In this document: one piece after another, positions 4,140-9,463 of the stretch | How the letters are laid out: each line of letters starts with the position of its first letter | Numbering within the stretch: position 1 is the first letter of the stretch | Assembly: GCA_003671275.1 (NCBI GenBank) | Contig: QWPB01000061.1 | Coordinates: 62,001 to 126,000, forward strand | Length of the DNA stretch: 64,000 nt | Direction of reading: 5' to 3' | Source: Planctomycetota bacterium | GTDB lineage: Bacteria > Planctomycetota > Planctomycetia > Planctomycetales > Planctomycetaceae | The notes under the pieces: model-generated | Database searches by the model: none | The model's input: the letters and a program-made list of their open reading frames with translations, nothing else | What the model was told of the DNA's origin: nothing | Program-made: the position numbers and the translations under genes

Positions 4140-4877
4140 ATGGATGGACATCTGGACTCGGCATCAAAACATTTGCTGCCTTTTCTCGAACTGGAAGACG
4201 GACAGCGATATGGCGTGAAAATCCGCCAGGCGGGGACGACCGAAATTCGCCTCGACGCGGCGATTCGGGTTGATGTGGGAATGATTGCGCTGCTGCATAT
4301 CGAAGACGAACACGGAGACTGCTGGTTTCGTTCCGCCGTGGAAATTCATTGGGCAGATCCATTTCCGGGCGGGACCAGTGTTGGGCTCTATCTCAGTCAG
4401 CCATTCTCTGAAGAACTGATGGCGTGGCATGAATGGGATCGCCGCGAGGCCATACGCTATCCGGTGGATATGGAGGCGCGGGTCTGGTGGTCGGGGGCTC
4501 GCCATGGGGCCTTGGGCCGGGTCGTTAATTATTCGTCGCATGGGGTCGGGGTGGTTTGCGATCGTCCCGTGGCTCAGTTTGGAGTTCCCGCGATTATTGT
4601 GGCCGGAATCGGATCGGATCGCATTGTCTGTGCCAATGGTTCCGCATGCTGGCAGGTCCAGGCGGTCGAAGGGATCATGATCGGCTTTGAGTTGGAGTCG
4701 TACCAGGGACGACGTTTTGGCGGTCAATCCCAAGCACCTCAGCGGTCCGTCAAACTCCCCGCTTCCAGCGTGGTTCGCAGCCCATTGCAACTCAATAACC
4801 CAATGAGTCCTTCGAAGGGGCCTCCCGATCAGGCATACTTTCGAAAGACACTCGACATGCAGCTGAATCTGCAGTGA
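4140..4877 (+). CDS. PilZ-domain protein, probable cyclic-di-GMP receptor
   Basis: A 245-residue cytoplasmic protein with no signal peptide. The PilZ signature lies at about residues 97-180: RREAIRYPV gives the basic R-x3-R type element, and NYSSHGVGV gives the (D/N)-x-S-x2-G element, separated by about 30 residues. Both halves of the c-di-GMP binding motif are present, so ligand binding is plausible. The first 95 residues form a beta-rich region that may be a YcgR-like N-terminal domain, and the 65-residue tail is polar and unrecognised. A GAGG ribosome site precedes the ATG. It lies 153 bp after the TolC-like gene and 257 bp before the terpenoid-synthase-like gene, same strand. Confidence 0.82.
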   Translation: MDGHLDSASKHLLPFLELEDGQRYGVKIRQAGTTEIRLDAAIRVDVGMIALLHIEDEHGDCWFRSAVEIHWADPFPGGTSVGLYLSQPFSEELMAWHEWDRREAIRYPVDMEARVWWSGARHGALGRVVNYSSHGVGVVCDRPVAQFGVPAIIVAGIGSDRIVCANGSACWQVQAVEGIMIGFELESYQGRRFGGQSQAPQRSVKLPASSVVRSPLQLNNPMSPSKGPPDQAYFRKTLDMQLNLQ

Positions 4878-5134: not shown

Positions 5135-6355
5135 GTGCCGGAGAGACCGCCTGAGACGAGGGATTACCCTGTAAGTTGCTGTGAATTTACTGGGAAGTGC
5201 GATGAGGCCTTGAGGTGCCTCAACGGGAAGGTCAGTATCGAGATTCTCTTCTTGCAGGGAACAGTTGGTTCCACAGAGGCTCTCGCGATCATACCGACAG
5301 GCATCCCACTGAACGATCAGTCCCCCACGTCGCTTCGATGGGAGCGGCTGCGGCACTTGTTTGTGGATGTCTTTAGAGAAAGTGGTATACCCAGTCAGAG
5401 ATTAGTGCTTTTAGGGCCGTCCGATCCGCCCGCATCGGTCACAGCGTGGATGACTGCGGATTTGCCGGCGAACATTCAATGCTGGGTGAATGAGTACAAC
5501 CACGTTGGCCAGCGTGGGTTATTTTTATGGCGGTGGTGTCTGTATGCCGTCGACCTGATCACCTTGTCTACGGTCGAGGCATCGCTCCGGAAGGAGGTGC
5601 TGGAGATCAAGTTCCTGATCGGGATGTACAACTGTCTGGTGGATGACGTGGCCGACGAGGGGCACAACCATGCGCTTCTCCACTCCCTGTTGAAACTGCA
5701 CCAGGGAGTGATTCCGGAACCCGCGTCTCCCGATGAAATTCCGGTGATCCAGTTCACCTCCAAAGTGTGGCGGGCGATTTGGGATCGGGCTCTGCGTTTG
5801 CCGCGATTTGATGAGTTCAAGCAGCTCCTGGCGTTTGATCTGAAGCAACTGGGGAACACCATCGAACACGCCGATCTCGTGTACCAGATTCCCGAACTGA
5901 TGAGCCCACAGGAACACGAGCTGTATTCGGCGCACGGCATGATGGTGACGATCTCGGCCAGCGTTGACCTGATGGCCAGTCCGGCCTTCGATCGACGGGA
6001 ACTAGGAGCCTTGAGAGAGATGCTGTGGCATGCCGAGTCGATGGCTCGAATCGGGAACATGATCAGCACCTGGGAACGGGAAATCGACGCCAACGATTTT
6101 TCGAGTGGCGTGTTCATGGAAGCGATCTGGCGGCGCGCCTTGAAGCCTTCGGATCTGTCAGCTGCCAATCGGAATCATCTGGTTCAGACGATCATCGAAT
6201 GTCAGATCGAGGAGCAGTTTGTGGGACGATGGAATCGTCATCGTGAGTCAATCCGCGCATTGCGAGATCGACTGGAGACGATCGACATGGACGATTATGT
6301 CGATCGGCTGGACAGCCTGTTCGACAGCGAACTCATCAGCCATGGGCGAAAGTGA
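5135..6355 (+). CDS. Class I terpenoid-synthase-fold protein, function unknown
   Basis: A 406-residue, mostly helical protein with no signal peptide. Two motifs mark the class I terpene synthase fold. The first is the acidic D-D-x-x-D-E at residues 170-175 (NCLVDDVADEG). The second is an NSE-type triad, N308-x3-T312-x3-E316, in GNMISTWERE. Their spacing of about 138 residues is normal for bacterial terpene cyclases, where they bind the Mg2+-diphosphate cluster. I do not see the usual pyrophosphate-sensor arginine in the helix before the NSE motif, nor a C-terminal R-Y pair, so substrate and even activity are uncertain. The first 130 residues are unrecognised. The GTG start at 5135 is poorly supported. 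The next gene, a hybrid histidine kinase, starts 24 bp downstream, so the two are probably co-transcribed. Confidence 0.7.
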   Translation: MPERPPETRDYPVSCCEFTGKCDEALRCLNGKVSIEILFLQGTVGSTEALAIIPTGIPLNDQSPTSLRWERLRHLFVDVFRESGIPSQRLVLLGPSDPPASVTAWMTADLPANIQCWVNEYNHVGQRGLFLWRWCLYAVDLITLSTVEASLRKEVLEIKFLIGMYNCLVDDVADEGHNHALLHSLLKLHQGVIPEPASPDEIPVIQFTSKVWRAIWDRALRLPRFDEFKQLLAFDLKQLGNTIEHADLVYQIPELMSPQEHELYSAHGMMVTISASVDLMASPAFDRRELGALREMLWHAESMARIGNMISTWEREIDANDFSSGVFMEAIWRRALKPSDLSAANRNHLVQTIIECQIEEQFVGRWNRHRESIRALRDRLETIDMDDYVDRLDSLFDSELISHGRK

Positions 6356-6379
6356 CGCCCACTTAGGGGATGTCACGCC

Positions 6380-9300
6380 GTGATTGAATGGATCTACCGG
6401 AAGAGCCAGCAGCATTTCATCACCGCGATGATGTTCGGGACGCGTTCGTTTGGCGTGGTGGGCGGCTGTCTAGTCTTGGTGTATGTCATCATGACGACCG
6501 ACATGCCAGGCAACGTGCAGCATCGTTTTTTGGAGTTGGGTTACTCCCTGATTGCGGTGGCCGTGTCGGTGACTGTTCCGCTGGCCTGGTATAACACCCC
6601 GCAGCTGCGTCGTGCGCTTCGGATGATTCATCAGGGAGTGCCATTATCGGCGGAGCTTTCGAGGCAGGCTACACTGGAGGCCATCCGGTTTCCGATCCGT
6701 CAGAATATCTGCGAAGCGATCGTTGTCCCCTGCACAACGGCCGTGCCGATGTGTCTGGATCTGTGGTTGAGATTTACAATCACTGGGGATCTATTATTAC
6801 AGATCTGTCTCGCGACATTTTTGGGAGTAGGACTGGTACTGCTCATTACATTCTTTGGAAGTGAACAATGGATGAGTGTCGCCATTGCCGACCTCATGCG
6901 GCGGGGCGGAGCGGTCGACTTTGATCAGCTCCCGCCGAATCATCTGAAGCGGCGGATCATGCTCTGCTTCAGCGTGATTATCATGCTTACGGGAGTGCTG
7001 GTGGGGGCGCTCGTCCATCAGGAGGCGTTGGACCTGACGCGGGGTACGGCGAGCAGTTCCTCGGTGCAGCGCATTCGTGAACATGCCATTCTGGTCACCG
7101 GCGTTGCGATCGCATTGGGCTGCTTTTATTCGCATTGGTTGGCGCAGTCGATTACCGGACGCATGGGGCGACTCATCTCGATCATGCAGGCGGTCCAGGC
7201 CGGAGACTTGACCGTGCGGGCCCGATCGACCGGAAATGATGAGCTTGATTTTCTCACGCGGCGATTCAATGACATGATTTCCGAGTTAAATCGGCAGACG
7301 ACATGCGCCCGAGAACTGAATCAGACACTGGAACAGAAGGTCGAAGAACGGACATTTGAACTTAGCCAGACTCTTGAGCAACTGCAAAATCTGGATCGAA
7401 TGAAGACCGAGTTCTTCTCGAATGTCAGTCATGAACTGCGCACACCACTCACGATGATTCTGTCTCCGATCCAGCAGTTACAGGCTCACTTTGCAGAGCA
7501 GACTGATGGGCGGATCGGCTCGCTGCTCAATGTGGCACATATCAATTCCCATCGTCTCCTGAAGCAGATTAACCAGCTGCTGGACTTCAGCAAACTGCAG
7601 GCGGGAAAGGCCCAGATCAATCAGTCGGAAGTCCAGTTGAACGCCATCGCCTTACGACTTGTGGAGGCCGCTGGACCATTGGCCGAACAGCGCGGAATTC
7701 ATCTGGTCGCGGACTTGGCGGAGCTGATGCCCGTGACCTGTTCCGACGAAGACAAGCTGGACGTGGCCATCACCAATCTGGTTACCAATGCGATCAAATT
7801 CACCCCGTATGGGGGGCACATCGCCATTCGAACCGAGGCGCTGGCCCATCCCGAGGGAACGCGGCTGCGATTTAGCGTGGCCGATACCGGGCCAGGGATT
7901 GCCGATCAGGATATGAGTAAACTGTTTCGACGGTTTGTTCAGCTGGACGGTTCGTTGTCTCGCGAATACTCCGGGACGGGGCTCGGCCTGGCGCTGGTCC
8001 GGGAACTCGTGGAACTGCTGGGGGGCACTGTAGGGGTCATCAGTCAGCTGGGACGCGGCAGTACGTTCTGGTTTGAGATTCCCTGGCGGCCGACTCTTAC
8101 GGATAGTGTGGTCGCAGAGCCCTCGCAATCATTGACCAAAGAGTTGGCGTTCTCGGACCTCAAGGATTGCCGACTGCATAGTGAACACTACGAGTCGCGG
8201 CCCGCGAATCCCTATGCTCCGCTGATCCTGATTGCGGACGATAATGCGGAGCTTCGTGACTTGCTCGTGGAGTTGCTGCGGGACGAGTACCGGATCGTGA
8301 CCGCCAAGGATGGTTTGGACGCCCTGTCGATGCTGGAGCGGGTCACTCCCGACTTGTTCATCTCCGACATCATGATGCCCCACATGGATGGGCAGGCGTT
8401 CTGCCGTGAAGTGAAACGTCGTTCGCAGACTGAGGCCGTGCCGTTCATCCTGCTGACAGCCCGCTCCTCGACCCTCATGAAGATCGAAGGTCTCGATTGC
8501 GGAGCTGATGATTATGTGTGCAAGCCCTTCGAGGGAGATGAACTGCGGGCCCGAATTCGGGCGCTGCTGCGATTGCGTCGGGCGCATGTCCAGCTGGACA
8601 TGCGAAAGTCCGAACTGGAACAGGCCAATGCTGAACTCGGGCGTGCGAATGAGAGCCTGAAACAGGCTCAGCAGCAACTGGTACAGACCGAGAAACTCAG
8701 CTCGTTGGGACAACTGGTGGCCGGTCTGGCACATGAAATCAACAACTCGATTAACGCCGTCTACAACGGTGTGCCAGCGCTCAAAATGAGGCTGTTGAAG
8801 TTGCGGAATCAGGTCAAAGCAGAGGCTTCCTCAGAGGCCGGTGGTAAGCTGGGAGAGGCCTTTGATAAATTGGATCTGCTGGCAGGGGTGATTGAAAGCG
8901 GGGCCGAACGGACCGCCCGAATTGTGAGTGACATGAAGACGTTCGCTCATCCGGGCCGTGAACGGAATGAGGACTTTGATTTCCATCGAGCGCTCGATCT
9001 GTGTTTGAATCTGAGCACCAAACAGACGGCCTCACCTATTCAGATCAAACGCAATTATGGCGAATTGCCGGTGGTGCATGGCCCGTACGGCCAGCTGCAC
9101 CAAGTGTTCCTGAACATCCTGACCAATTCCGTACAGGCCATGGGACCGGGCGGGGCGATTACCGTGTCGACCAACCGAGTCAAGCACATGTTGGAAGTTC
9201 GCCTGCGGGATACCGGGCCGGGAATCCCCGCTGCCAATATTCGCAAAATCTTCGAGCCGTTCTATACCACGAAGGCCCCCGGGGTGGGGACTGGGCTGGG

Positions 9301-9463
9301 GCTTTCGATCAGCTACAGCATTGTGACTAAGCTCGGGGGATCGATTGAGTGTGTCAGTGAATGTGATGCCGAAGGGGAACACGGGACAGAGTTCATTCTC
9401 CAGATCCCGGTGCCACGGTATCTGCTGAATGCCGAGTCTGGAGTGCTGGCTTCCGCCCGCTAA
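6380..9463 (+). CDS. Six-TM hybrid sensor histidine kinase with two kinase cores
   Basis: A 1,027-residue membrane protein. About six hydrophobic helices fill residues 15-255 with almost no periplasmic domain. A HAMP-like linker follows (about 254-308). The first HisKA has H351 in FFSNVSHELRTPL and is followed by a HATPase with DTGPGIADQ and GTGLGLALV. A receiver domain has acidic DDNAE, phospho-acceptor D663 in FISDIMMPHMDG and K in CKPFEG. A coiled coil leads into a second kinase core with H785 in GLAHEINN and a HATPase containing GVGTGLGLS. This allows an internal H351 to D663 relay plus output through the second kinase. No output regulator is adjacent. It uses a GTG start 24 bp after the terpenoid-synthase-like gene. 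The membrane portion looks suited to sensing a lipophilic or membrane-bound signal, which is inference. Confidence 0.93.
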   Translation: MIEWIYRKSQQHFITAMMFGTRSFGVVGGCLVLVYVIMTTDMPGNVQHRFLELGYSLIAVAVSVTVPLAWYNTPQLRRALRMIHQGVPLSAELSRQATLEAIRFPIRQNICEAIVVPCTTAVPMCLDLWLRFTITGDLLLQICLATFLGVGLVLLITFFGSEQWMSVAIADLMRRGGAVDFDQLPPNHLKRRIMLCFSVIIMLTGVLVGALVHQEALDLTRGTASSSSVQRIREHAILVTGVAIALGCFYSHWLAQSITGRMGRLISIMQAVQAGDLTVRARSTGNDELDFLTRRFNDMISELNRQTTCARELNQTLEQKVEERTFELSQTLEQLQNLDRMKTEFFSNVSHELRTPLTMILSPIQQLQAHFAEQTDGRIGSLLNVAHINSHRLLKQINQLLDFSKLQAGKAQINQSEVQLNAIALRLVEAAGPLAEQRGIHLVADLAELMPVTCSDEDKLDVAITNLVTNAIKFTPYGGHIAIRTEALAHPEGTRLRFSVADTGPGIADQDMSKLFRRFVQLDGSLSREYSGTGLGLALVRELVELLGGTVGVISQLGRGSTFWFEIPWRPTLTDSVVAEPSQSLTKELAFSDLKDCRLHSEHYESRPANPYAPLILIADDNAELRDLLVELLRDEYRIVTAKDGLDALSMLERVTPDLFISDIMMPHMDGQAFCREVKRRSQTEAVPFILLTARSSTLMKIEGLDCGADDYVCKPFEGDELRARIRALLRLRRAHVQLDMRKSELEQANAELGRANESLKQAQQQLVQTEKLSSLGQLVAGLAHEINNSINAVYNGVPALKMRLLKLRNQVKAEASSEAGGKLGEAFDKLDLLAGVIESGAERTARIVSDMKTFAHPGRERNEDFDFHRALDLCLNLSTKQTASPIQIKRNYGELPVVHGPYGQLHQVFLNILTNSVQAMGPGGAITVSTNRVKHMLEVRLRDTGPGIPAANIRKIFEPFYTTKAPGVGTGLGLSISYSIVTKLGGSIECVSECDAEGEHGTEFILQIPVPRYLLNAESGVLASAR

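Follow-up and report, generated by a model that had tools for sequence, protein, structure and literature searches.

To our knowledge, the known pairs of a signal synthase and its receptor use acyl chains, ketones, lactones or peptides. In the CqsA-CqsS and LqsA-LqsS systems, the synthase gene adjoins the kinase gene, and CqsA is a PLP-dependent enzyme. The receptor CqsS possesses a six-transmembrane (six-TM) sensor without extracellular loops, and its ligand is highly lipophilic (PMC4821796). In the RpfF-RpfC-RpfG system of Xanthomonas, RpfC is the sensor of the fatty-acid signal DSF, and it both represses the synthase via its receiver domain and switches on a c-di-GMP phosphodiesterase (PMC5391125, PMC3749722); it also provides a precedent for a receptor of a lipophilic signal that consists of TM helices only (PMC5391125). 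We analysed a stretch of planctomycete DNA of 64,000 nucleotides, hereafter the window, which contains a gene pair with the layout of the Xanthomonas system, in that a gene for a putative synthase of a lipophilic signal adjoins a gene for a hybrid kinase with a TM-only sensor. No description of a terpenoid-synthase/sensor-kinase system was found in the open-access literature.

Given the layout of RpfF-RpfC-RpfG and the precedent of CqsS, the most likely explanation of this pair is that it comprises a synthase for a terpenoid signal and the membrane receptor of that signal. We give a probability of about 0.43 to the reading that the two genes form a terpenoid-signal module in which the product of the synthase is sensed by the adjacent membrane kinase. 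In such a module, the synthase-fold enzyme would use a prenyl diphosphate to make a small, lipophilic terpenoid, this product would partition into the membrane, and the neighbouring hybrid kinase would detect it there with its six-TM sensor domain, which is poor in loops. The kinase would then relay phosphate to a response regulator, which in several relatives may be a REC-HD-GYP c-di-GMP phosphodiesterase. Signalling would thus run from the synthase to the kinase, and the module would work like RpfF-RpfC-RpfG (DSF) or CqsA-CqsS (CAI-1), with a terpenoid replacing the fatty-acid or ketone chemistry. If this is true, a pair based on a class I terpenoid synthase adds terpenoid chemistry to prokaryotic cell-cell signalling.

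The gene pair in the window

The class I terpenoid-synthase-fold protein is encoded at positions 5135..6355 of the + strand (406 aa, GTG start; conserved domain at approximately residues 108-406). The first ~47 residues of this protein are missing from the homologue in the same genus, and its exact start codon is therefore uncertain. Direct reading of the sequence located the first metal motif, DDVADE (D170-E175), at 5642..5659 (+) and the second, N308-MIS-T312-WER-E316 of the NSE/DTE type, at 6056..6082 (+). After a gap of 24 bp, the membrane hybrid histidine kinase follows on the same strand at 6380..9463 (+; 1027 aa, GTG start), as assigned by Pfam and hydropathy. The sequence-only reading had described both ORFs with their 24-bp spacing, the metal motifs D170-D171-x2-D174-E175 and N308-x3-T312-x3-E316, and a six-TM kinase with almost no periplasmic domain. 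The ORFs, the spacing and the motifs were all found by direct reading of the window, and hydropathy agreed on the kinase, giving six TM segments with short outer loops.

The architecture of the kinase is 6TM-HAMP-HisKA-HATPase-REC-HisKA-like-HATPase, i.e., kinase-REC-kinase. Hydropathy placed the six-TM sensor region at 6425..7141 (+), with TM segments at residues 16-34, 50-68, 110-128, 138-156, 193-211 and 236-254 and, in an N-in topology, outer loops of approximately 15, 9 and 24 residues; no recognisable input domain other than the TM helices was present in the sensor. Pfam identified a HAMP domain (7136..7291, +), a first kinase core of HisKA and HATPase_c (7400..8086, +), a receiver domain within the hybrid kinase (8225..8560, +) and a second stretch of HATPase_c, which together with a HisKA-like region forms the second kinase core (8657..9412, +). 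The six-TM sensor without an extracellular domain, as judged by hydropathy only, is shared with CqsS and LqsS, a likeness of layout for which no sequence relation between the sensors was shown. The kinase differs from RpfC, which has five TM segments and no HAMP domain. The six-TM-HAMP region presumably resembles that of the six-TM-HAMP adenylate cyclases; a relation between the two could not be demonstrated, as a PDB profile search and a plasmid tblastn search reached essentially only the HAMP end.

A PilZ-like protein is encoded 257 bp upstream of the synthase-like gene (4140..4877, +; Pfam PilZ E 0.17, under the cut-off). PilZ and GGDEF proteins are part of the Xanthomonas network (PMC5391125, PMC3749722). 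The upstream gene is a possible but weak candidate for a third member of the unit, given its sub-cut-off Pfam score and the lack of a homologue among those found at the locus of the same genus. Further upstream, on the same strand as the pair, lies a gene for a TolC-like outer membrane efflux protein (PF02321; 1863-3986, +), for which no link to the pair was shown.

Predicted fold and active site

Direct sequence searches with the 406-aa protein found no match in Pfam, NCBIfam or the PDB sequences, and a scan of genome contigs with the single protein also gave none, although a later profile scan did match. The window protein did not reach the gathering threshold of PF19086 (Terpene_syn_C_2) and had no match at all to this family; a PF19086 search likewise found no match in the window's own genome or in any control genome. 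Among the relatives, one protein (L064) scored 20.6 bits against the threshold of 23.7, and three members of the alignment matched weakly.

An AF2 model of the 406-aa protein from its single sequence was unusable (pLDDT 37), and an alignment-based model of the conserved 306 residues was built from 20 homologues. The latter reached a pLDDT of 91.5 and a pTM of 0.90 and presented an all-helical class I fold. VIA-align comparisons of this AF2 model gave Z scores of 20.6 with tobacco epi-aristolochene synthase (TEAS) and 20.4 with the bacterial synthase Sat1646, and the top Foldseek matches were bacterial class I terpene synthases, the best being T-muurolol synthase (E 5e-4). In addition, a PDB profile search matched the protein to the Streptomyces synthase Stt4548 with the two metal motifs aligned in the same order, at a non-significant E of 0.19. 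The predicted structure (AF2, Foldseek and VIA-align) indicates that the 406-aa protein has the class I terpenoid-synthase fold, and the sequence-only proposal of that fold was upheld. This predicted fold sets the protein apart from RpfF, which belongs to the crotonase superfamily and acts on acyl chains, and from the PLP-dependent CqsA. Bacterial class I terpene synthases (T-muurolol synthase, Sat1646/Stt4548, hydropyrene synthase; PF19086) share with it the fold and both metal motifs in the same order. The differences from these enzymes are an identity of only ~9-16%, the missing Pfam match of the window protein with sub-threshold scores in its relatives, an unusual active-site arginine region, and the frequent fusion of this synthase family to DXS, PilZ or receiver domains.

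To evaluate the active site, the protein was compared with 91 non-identical relatives. The DDxxD/E motif (D170-D171-x2-D174) and the NSE/DTE motif (N-x3-S/T-x3-E; N308-T312-E316) are present in 90/91 of them, and all six metal-ligand positions are kept in these 90; the one relative that deviates belongs to a tandem pair within a single genome. This conservation argues that the metal motifs did not arise by chance. R315 (N308 + 7) is kept in 89/91. By sequence spacing alone, neither the canonical pyrophosphate-sensor Arg, expected ~46 residues before the NSE motif, nor the C-terminal R-Y pair of bacterial class I terpene synthases was seen in the window protein. The stretch equivalent to the Arg region is a family-specific motif with a conserved Tyr and His in most members, and the non-canonical character of this stretch holds family-wide, also in operons with polyprenyl synthases or methyltransferases. 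Since the canonical Arg is absent across the whole synthase family, its absence would be a family trait and not a decay of the window protein. However, at five positions that are otherwise conserved (H245, S257, G268, E301 and E399), the window protein differs from the rest of the family, and its genus-mate does so at four; because of the five altered positions, the window copy may have changed its function.

Isoprenoid, output and transport neighbours

In many planctomycete homologues, which measure 500-980 aa, the synthase domain is preceded by a whole or partial N-terminal DXS (1-deoxyxylulose-5-phosphate synthase). The DXS motifs GDG, NDN, GIAEQH/GLAEQH, THHG and DRAG are intact in three fusions from Planctomycetota bins (L058, 3840-6587; L059, 7120-9930; L061, 7162-9909), where GHQ reads GNQ. 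A degenerate-GGDEF-like gene lies just upstream of each of these three or overlaps it. In at least nine other fusions (those examined: L023, L027, L029, L039, L040, L060, L068, L073 and L097), the DXS motifs have been lost and the metal ligands of the synthase have been kept. Judged by these motifs, the decayed fusions stand at different stages of decay and appear to be a natural enzyme-to-pseudoenzyme series, and intact and decayed domains together would offer material for how an enzyme domain turns into a pseudoenzyme. The window protein's first 110 residues were considered as a remnant of the C-terminal domain of DXS, which was rejected because a fused-DXS profile scored them no better than shuffles.

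IspH (LytB) is the last enzyme of the same pathway as DXS, the MEP pathway. In nine planctomycete loci (L037, 13250-14179; L039, 12798-13724; L060, 14214-15221; and six more), an IspH gene lies downstream of the kinase gene. Its DATCP and IC-x-ATQNRQ motifs are present in 9/9, and RGFC was found by a strict pattern in five. In the three genomes where this was checkable (G481, G538 and G539), the pair-linked IspH is an extra copy. In Patescibacteria and their relatives, a polyprenyl synthase or methyltransferase gene precedes the synthase and a seven-TM kinase, and an FAD oxidoreductase adjoins the DXS-synthase fusions in L059, L061 and L073. None of the neighbouring genes scanned in the window encodes DXS, IspH or another isoprenoid enzyme; elsewhere in the window's genome there are a separate DXS and, on a different contig, one IspH. 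With dedicated supply genes absent from the window, the synthase there would have to draw on the general prenyl-diphosphate pool of the cell. The earlier statement that no other isoprenoid gene is near is therefore correct for the scanned neighbours in the window and fails for the synthase family elsewhere. Conversely, the isoprenoid link that it had suggested is seen in the relatives, with their DXS fusions, IspH, polyprenyl synthases, methyltransferases and nearby FadL porins, whereas the window itself is without such neighbours. This probable isoprenoid connection is strongly supported, by the relatives rather than by the window.

These neighbours also bear on the hypothesis that the synthase fold is non-catalytic and acts as a prenyl-diphosphate sensor, touching the kinase directly and reporting isoprenoid supply. 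The missing canonical Arg and R-Y pair, the conversion of the DXS domain into a pseudoenzyme in most fusions and the five altered positions in the window protein are consistent with this hypothesis, but the near-invariant metal ligands (90/91) and R315 (89/91) speak against it, and the presence of methyltransferase, polyprenyl synthase and FAD oxidoreductase genes nearby suggests that a product is made and modified. Taken together, the metal ligands and the supply and tailoring genes argue for a product, and we therefore regard a non-catalytic sensor as unlikely; this reading is strongest for the window copy, where conserved positions have changed and supply genes are absent. The earlier suggestion of such a role from the missing Arg and R-Y pair is weakened by the family-wide nature of the non-canonical Arg stretch and by the retention of the metal ligands and R315.

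In several relatives (G121, G538/G539 and L069), the pair is followed at a short distance by a gene for a REC-HD-GYP protein whose HD and H-x4-G-x-GYP motifs are intact, which recalls the RpfF-RpfC-RpfG layout, and a REC-kinase gene follows the pair in other planctomycete loci. Among the neighbouring genes scanned in the window, no response regulator, including REC-HD-GYP, adjoins the pair. HD_5 domains number only 1-11 per genome in the 15 genomes checked. FadL-family proteins move hydrophobic molecules across the outer membrane. In 11 non-duplicate loci, a FadL-family porin gene, mostly present in one copy per genome, was found at most 10 kb from the synthase. The window's genome yielded a single FadL-family gene (G000:C1:50873-51952), which shares contig and strand with the pair and lies 15 kb upstream of it.

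Distribution of the pair and its signalling partners

Within the taxonomic family of the window, the synthase-like protein is encoded in 13 of the 170 genomes and the sensor region of the kinase in 14, namely the same 13 and one more, whose copy sits at a contig end with the upstream gene out of view. The two genes are adjacent in all 13 genomes (13/13), and with the exception of the contig-end copy, the sensor was not found in any synthase-less genome among the 170 scanned. Pairing is thus obligate in this family. Distances between synthases and between sensors are correlated (r 0.84; none of 2000 permutations as high; 22 pairs, with a contribution from shared ancestry). The concern that the gene pair might be confined to a single genome is removed by these 13 genomes and by wider relatives.

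A profile scan over 84,980 species genomes, seeded on two short motifs, revealed at least 102 relatives, and the sequences of 80 were retrieved. Their hosts are Planctomycetota, Patescibacteria, single Proteobacteria, Verrucomicrobia, myxobacteria and more than 40 archaea, mostly haloarchaea. The gene calls at these loci are mechanical, loci from the same clade cannot be counted as independent, and many of the genomes are metagenome bins. At loci with enough flanking DNA, a signalling gene was the next neighbour in 30/83 cases in archaea, against 1/198 further off, and in 26/60 cases in bacteria, against 3/83 further off. Signalling genes therefore make up 36-43% of immediate neighbours and 0.5-4% of those further away, and with non-independent loci and mechanical gene calls kept in mind, these counts led us to reject a chance adjacency of synthase and signalling genes. 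In 21 of the 76 counted loci (about a quarter), several of them at contig ends, no signalling gene is immediately adjacent. The partner differs among hosts: it is a six-TM hybrid kinase in planctomycetes, a histidine kinase with a seven-TM region (PF16927) in Patescibacteria and their relatives, and a Bat-type PAS-GAF-BAT-HTH_10 regulator in haloarchaea, adjacent in 26/43 archaeal loci. In addition, the synthase is fused to a receiver domain in two haloarchaeal copies (L102 and L113) and to PilZ in two bacterial copies (L030 and L065). The synthase-sensor pair is old and widespread.

It could be argued that the pair has merely been co-inherited, a terpenoid enzyme and a kinase remaining neighbours with no functional link, since gene order can persist in slowly rearranging regions and the related haloarchaeal loci are not independent. 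However, sensory partners differ between lineages, signalling genes are concentrated at the immediately neighbouring positions, and the sensor is not found in synthase-less genomes of the family apart from the one contig-end copy. We therefore consider simple co-inheritance very improbable.

The classical Bat (bacterio-opsin activator) locus controls bacteriorhodopsin and retinal genes. The archaeal loci resemble it in that Bat-type PAS-GAF-BAT-HTH_10 proteins adjoin a member of a family with an isoprenoid-enzyme fold; no description of this synthase family at Bat loci was found in the open-access literature. Haloarchaeal plasmid copies are annotated 'hypothetical protein' in the records examined, and several adjoin 'bacterio-opsin activator', 'PAS domain S-box' or HTH-regulator genes, with 'HalOD1' genes nearby. 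These loci raise the alternative that the sensory proteins stand upstream, so that terpenoid production is switched on or off by the kinase or Bat regulator in response to light, oxygen, redox or membrane state, the terpenoid being an end product (a membrane modifier, protectant or defence compound) and not a signal. This alternative is nearly as likely as the terpenoid-signal module. The receiver-synthase fusions, the Bat regulators in 26/43 archaeal loci, the HTH regulator and HalOD1 genes beside the Halorussus gene, and the dedicated DXS and IspH copies, which would raise flux, all fit it. Nevertheless, no DNA-binding regulator was seen next to the planctomycete pairs, the regulators scanned there are REC-HD-GYP or REC-kinase proteins with no obvious control of a terpenoid gene, and the kinase sensor has no recognisable input domain besides its TM helices. 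If the direction of signalling were reversed in this way, with the sensor controlling terpenoid synthesis, the pair would still be an undescribed control circuit that can be tested.

Several lines of evidence speak for the terpenoid-signal module: the predicted fold, the metal ligands in 90/91 relatives, the pairing with its co-varying distances, the TM-only sensor, and the DXS, IspH, polyprenyl synthase, methyltransferase, FadL and HD-GYP genes that accompany it in relatives. Three observations weaken it. First, control of the synthase accounts at least equally well for the receiver-synthase fusions and the Bat neighbours. Second, about a quarter of the loci are without an adjacent signalling gene. 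Third, the window copy itself has five altered positions and no adjacent response regulator, IspH or DXS. We tentatively suggest, at somewhat less than even odds, that bacteria and archaea share a form of terpenoid signalling in which a membrane-permeant terpenoid made by the synthase family is read by a host-specific sensor, c-di-GMP being one of the outputs in planctomycetes; at the same level of confidence, the host-specific sensors would be the six-TM and seven-TM histidine kinases and the Bat-type regulators. If so, this would provide a function for a synthase family of planctomycetes, Patescibacteria and haloarchaea, whose haloarchaeal members carried only the 'hypothetical protein' annotation noted above.

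Two smaller observations concern the outskirts of the family. On Halorussus plasmids (L151, 6929-7690; L153, 6927-7727), an HTH regulator gene follows the synthase-like gene without a gap and is itself followed by a HalOD1 gene. The regulator in L151 carries FilR1_middle and HVO_A0261_N domains, and the Halorussus HTH regulator is a third kind of signalling partner. A genome of 9.5 Mb from the same phylum as the window (G163) contains four distant paralogues (L031, 7971-10083; L033, 7920-8882; and L034, 6374-8242, among their loci); one of these is a tandem-pair member with broken metal motifs, and another is fused to a domain that, by eye, is methyltransferase-like.
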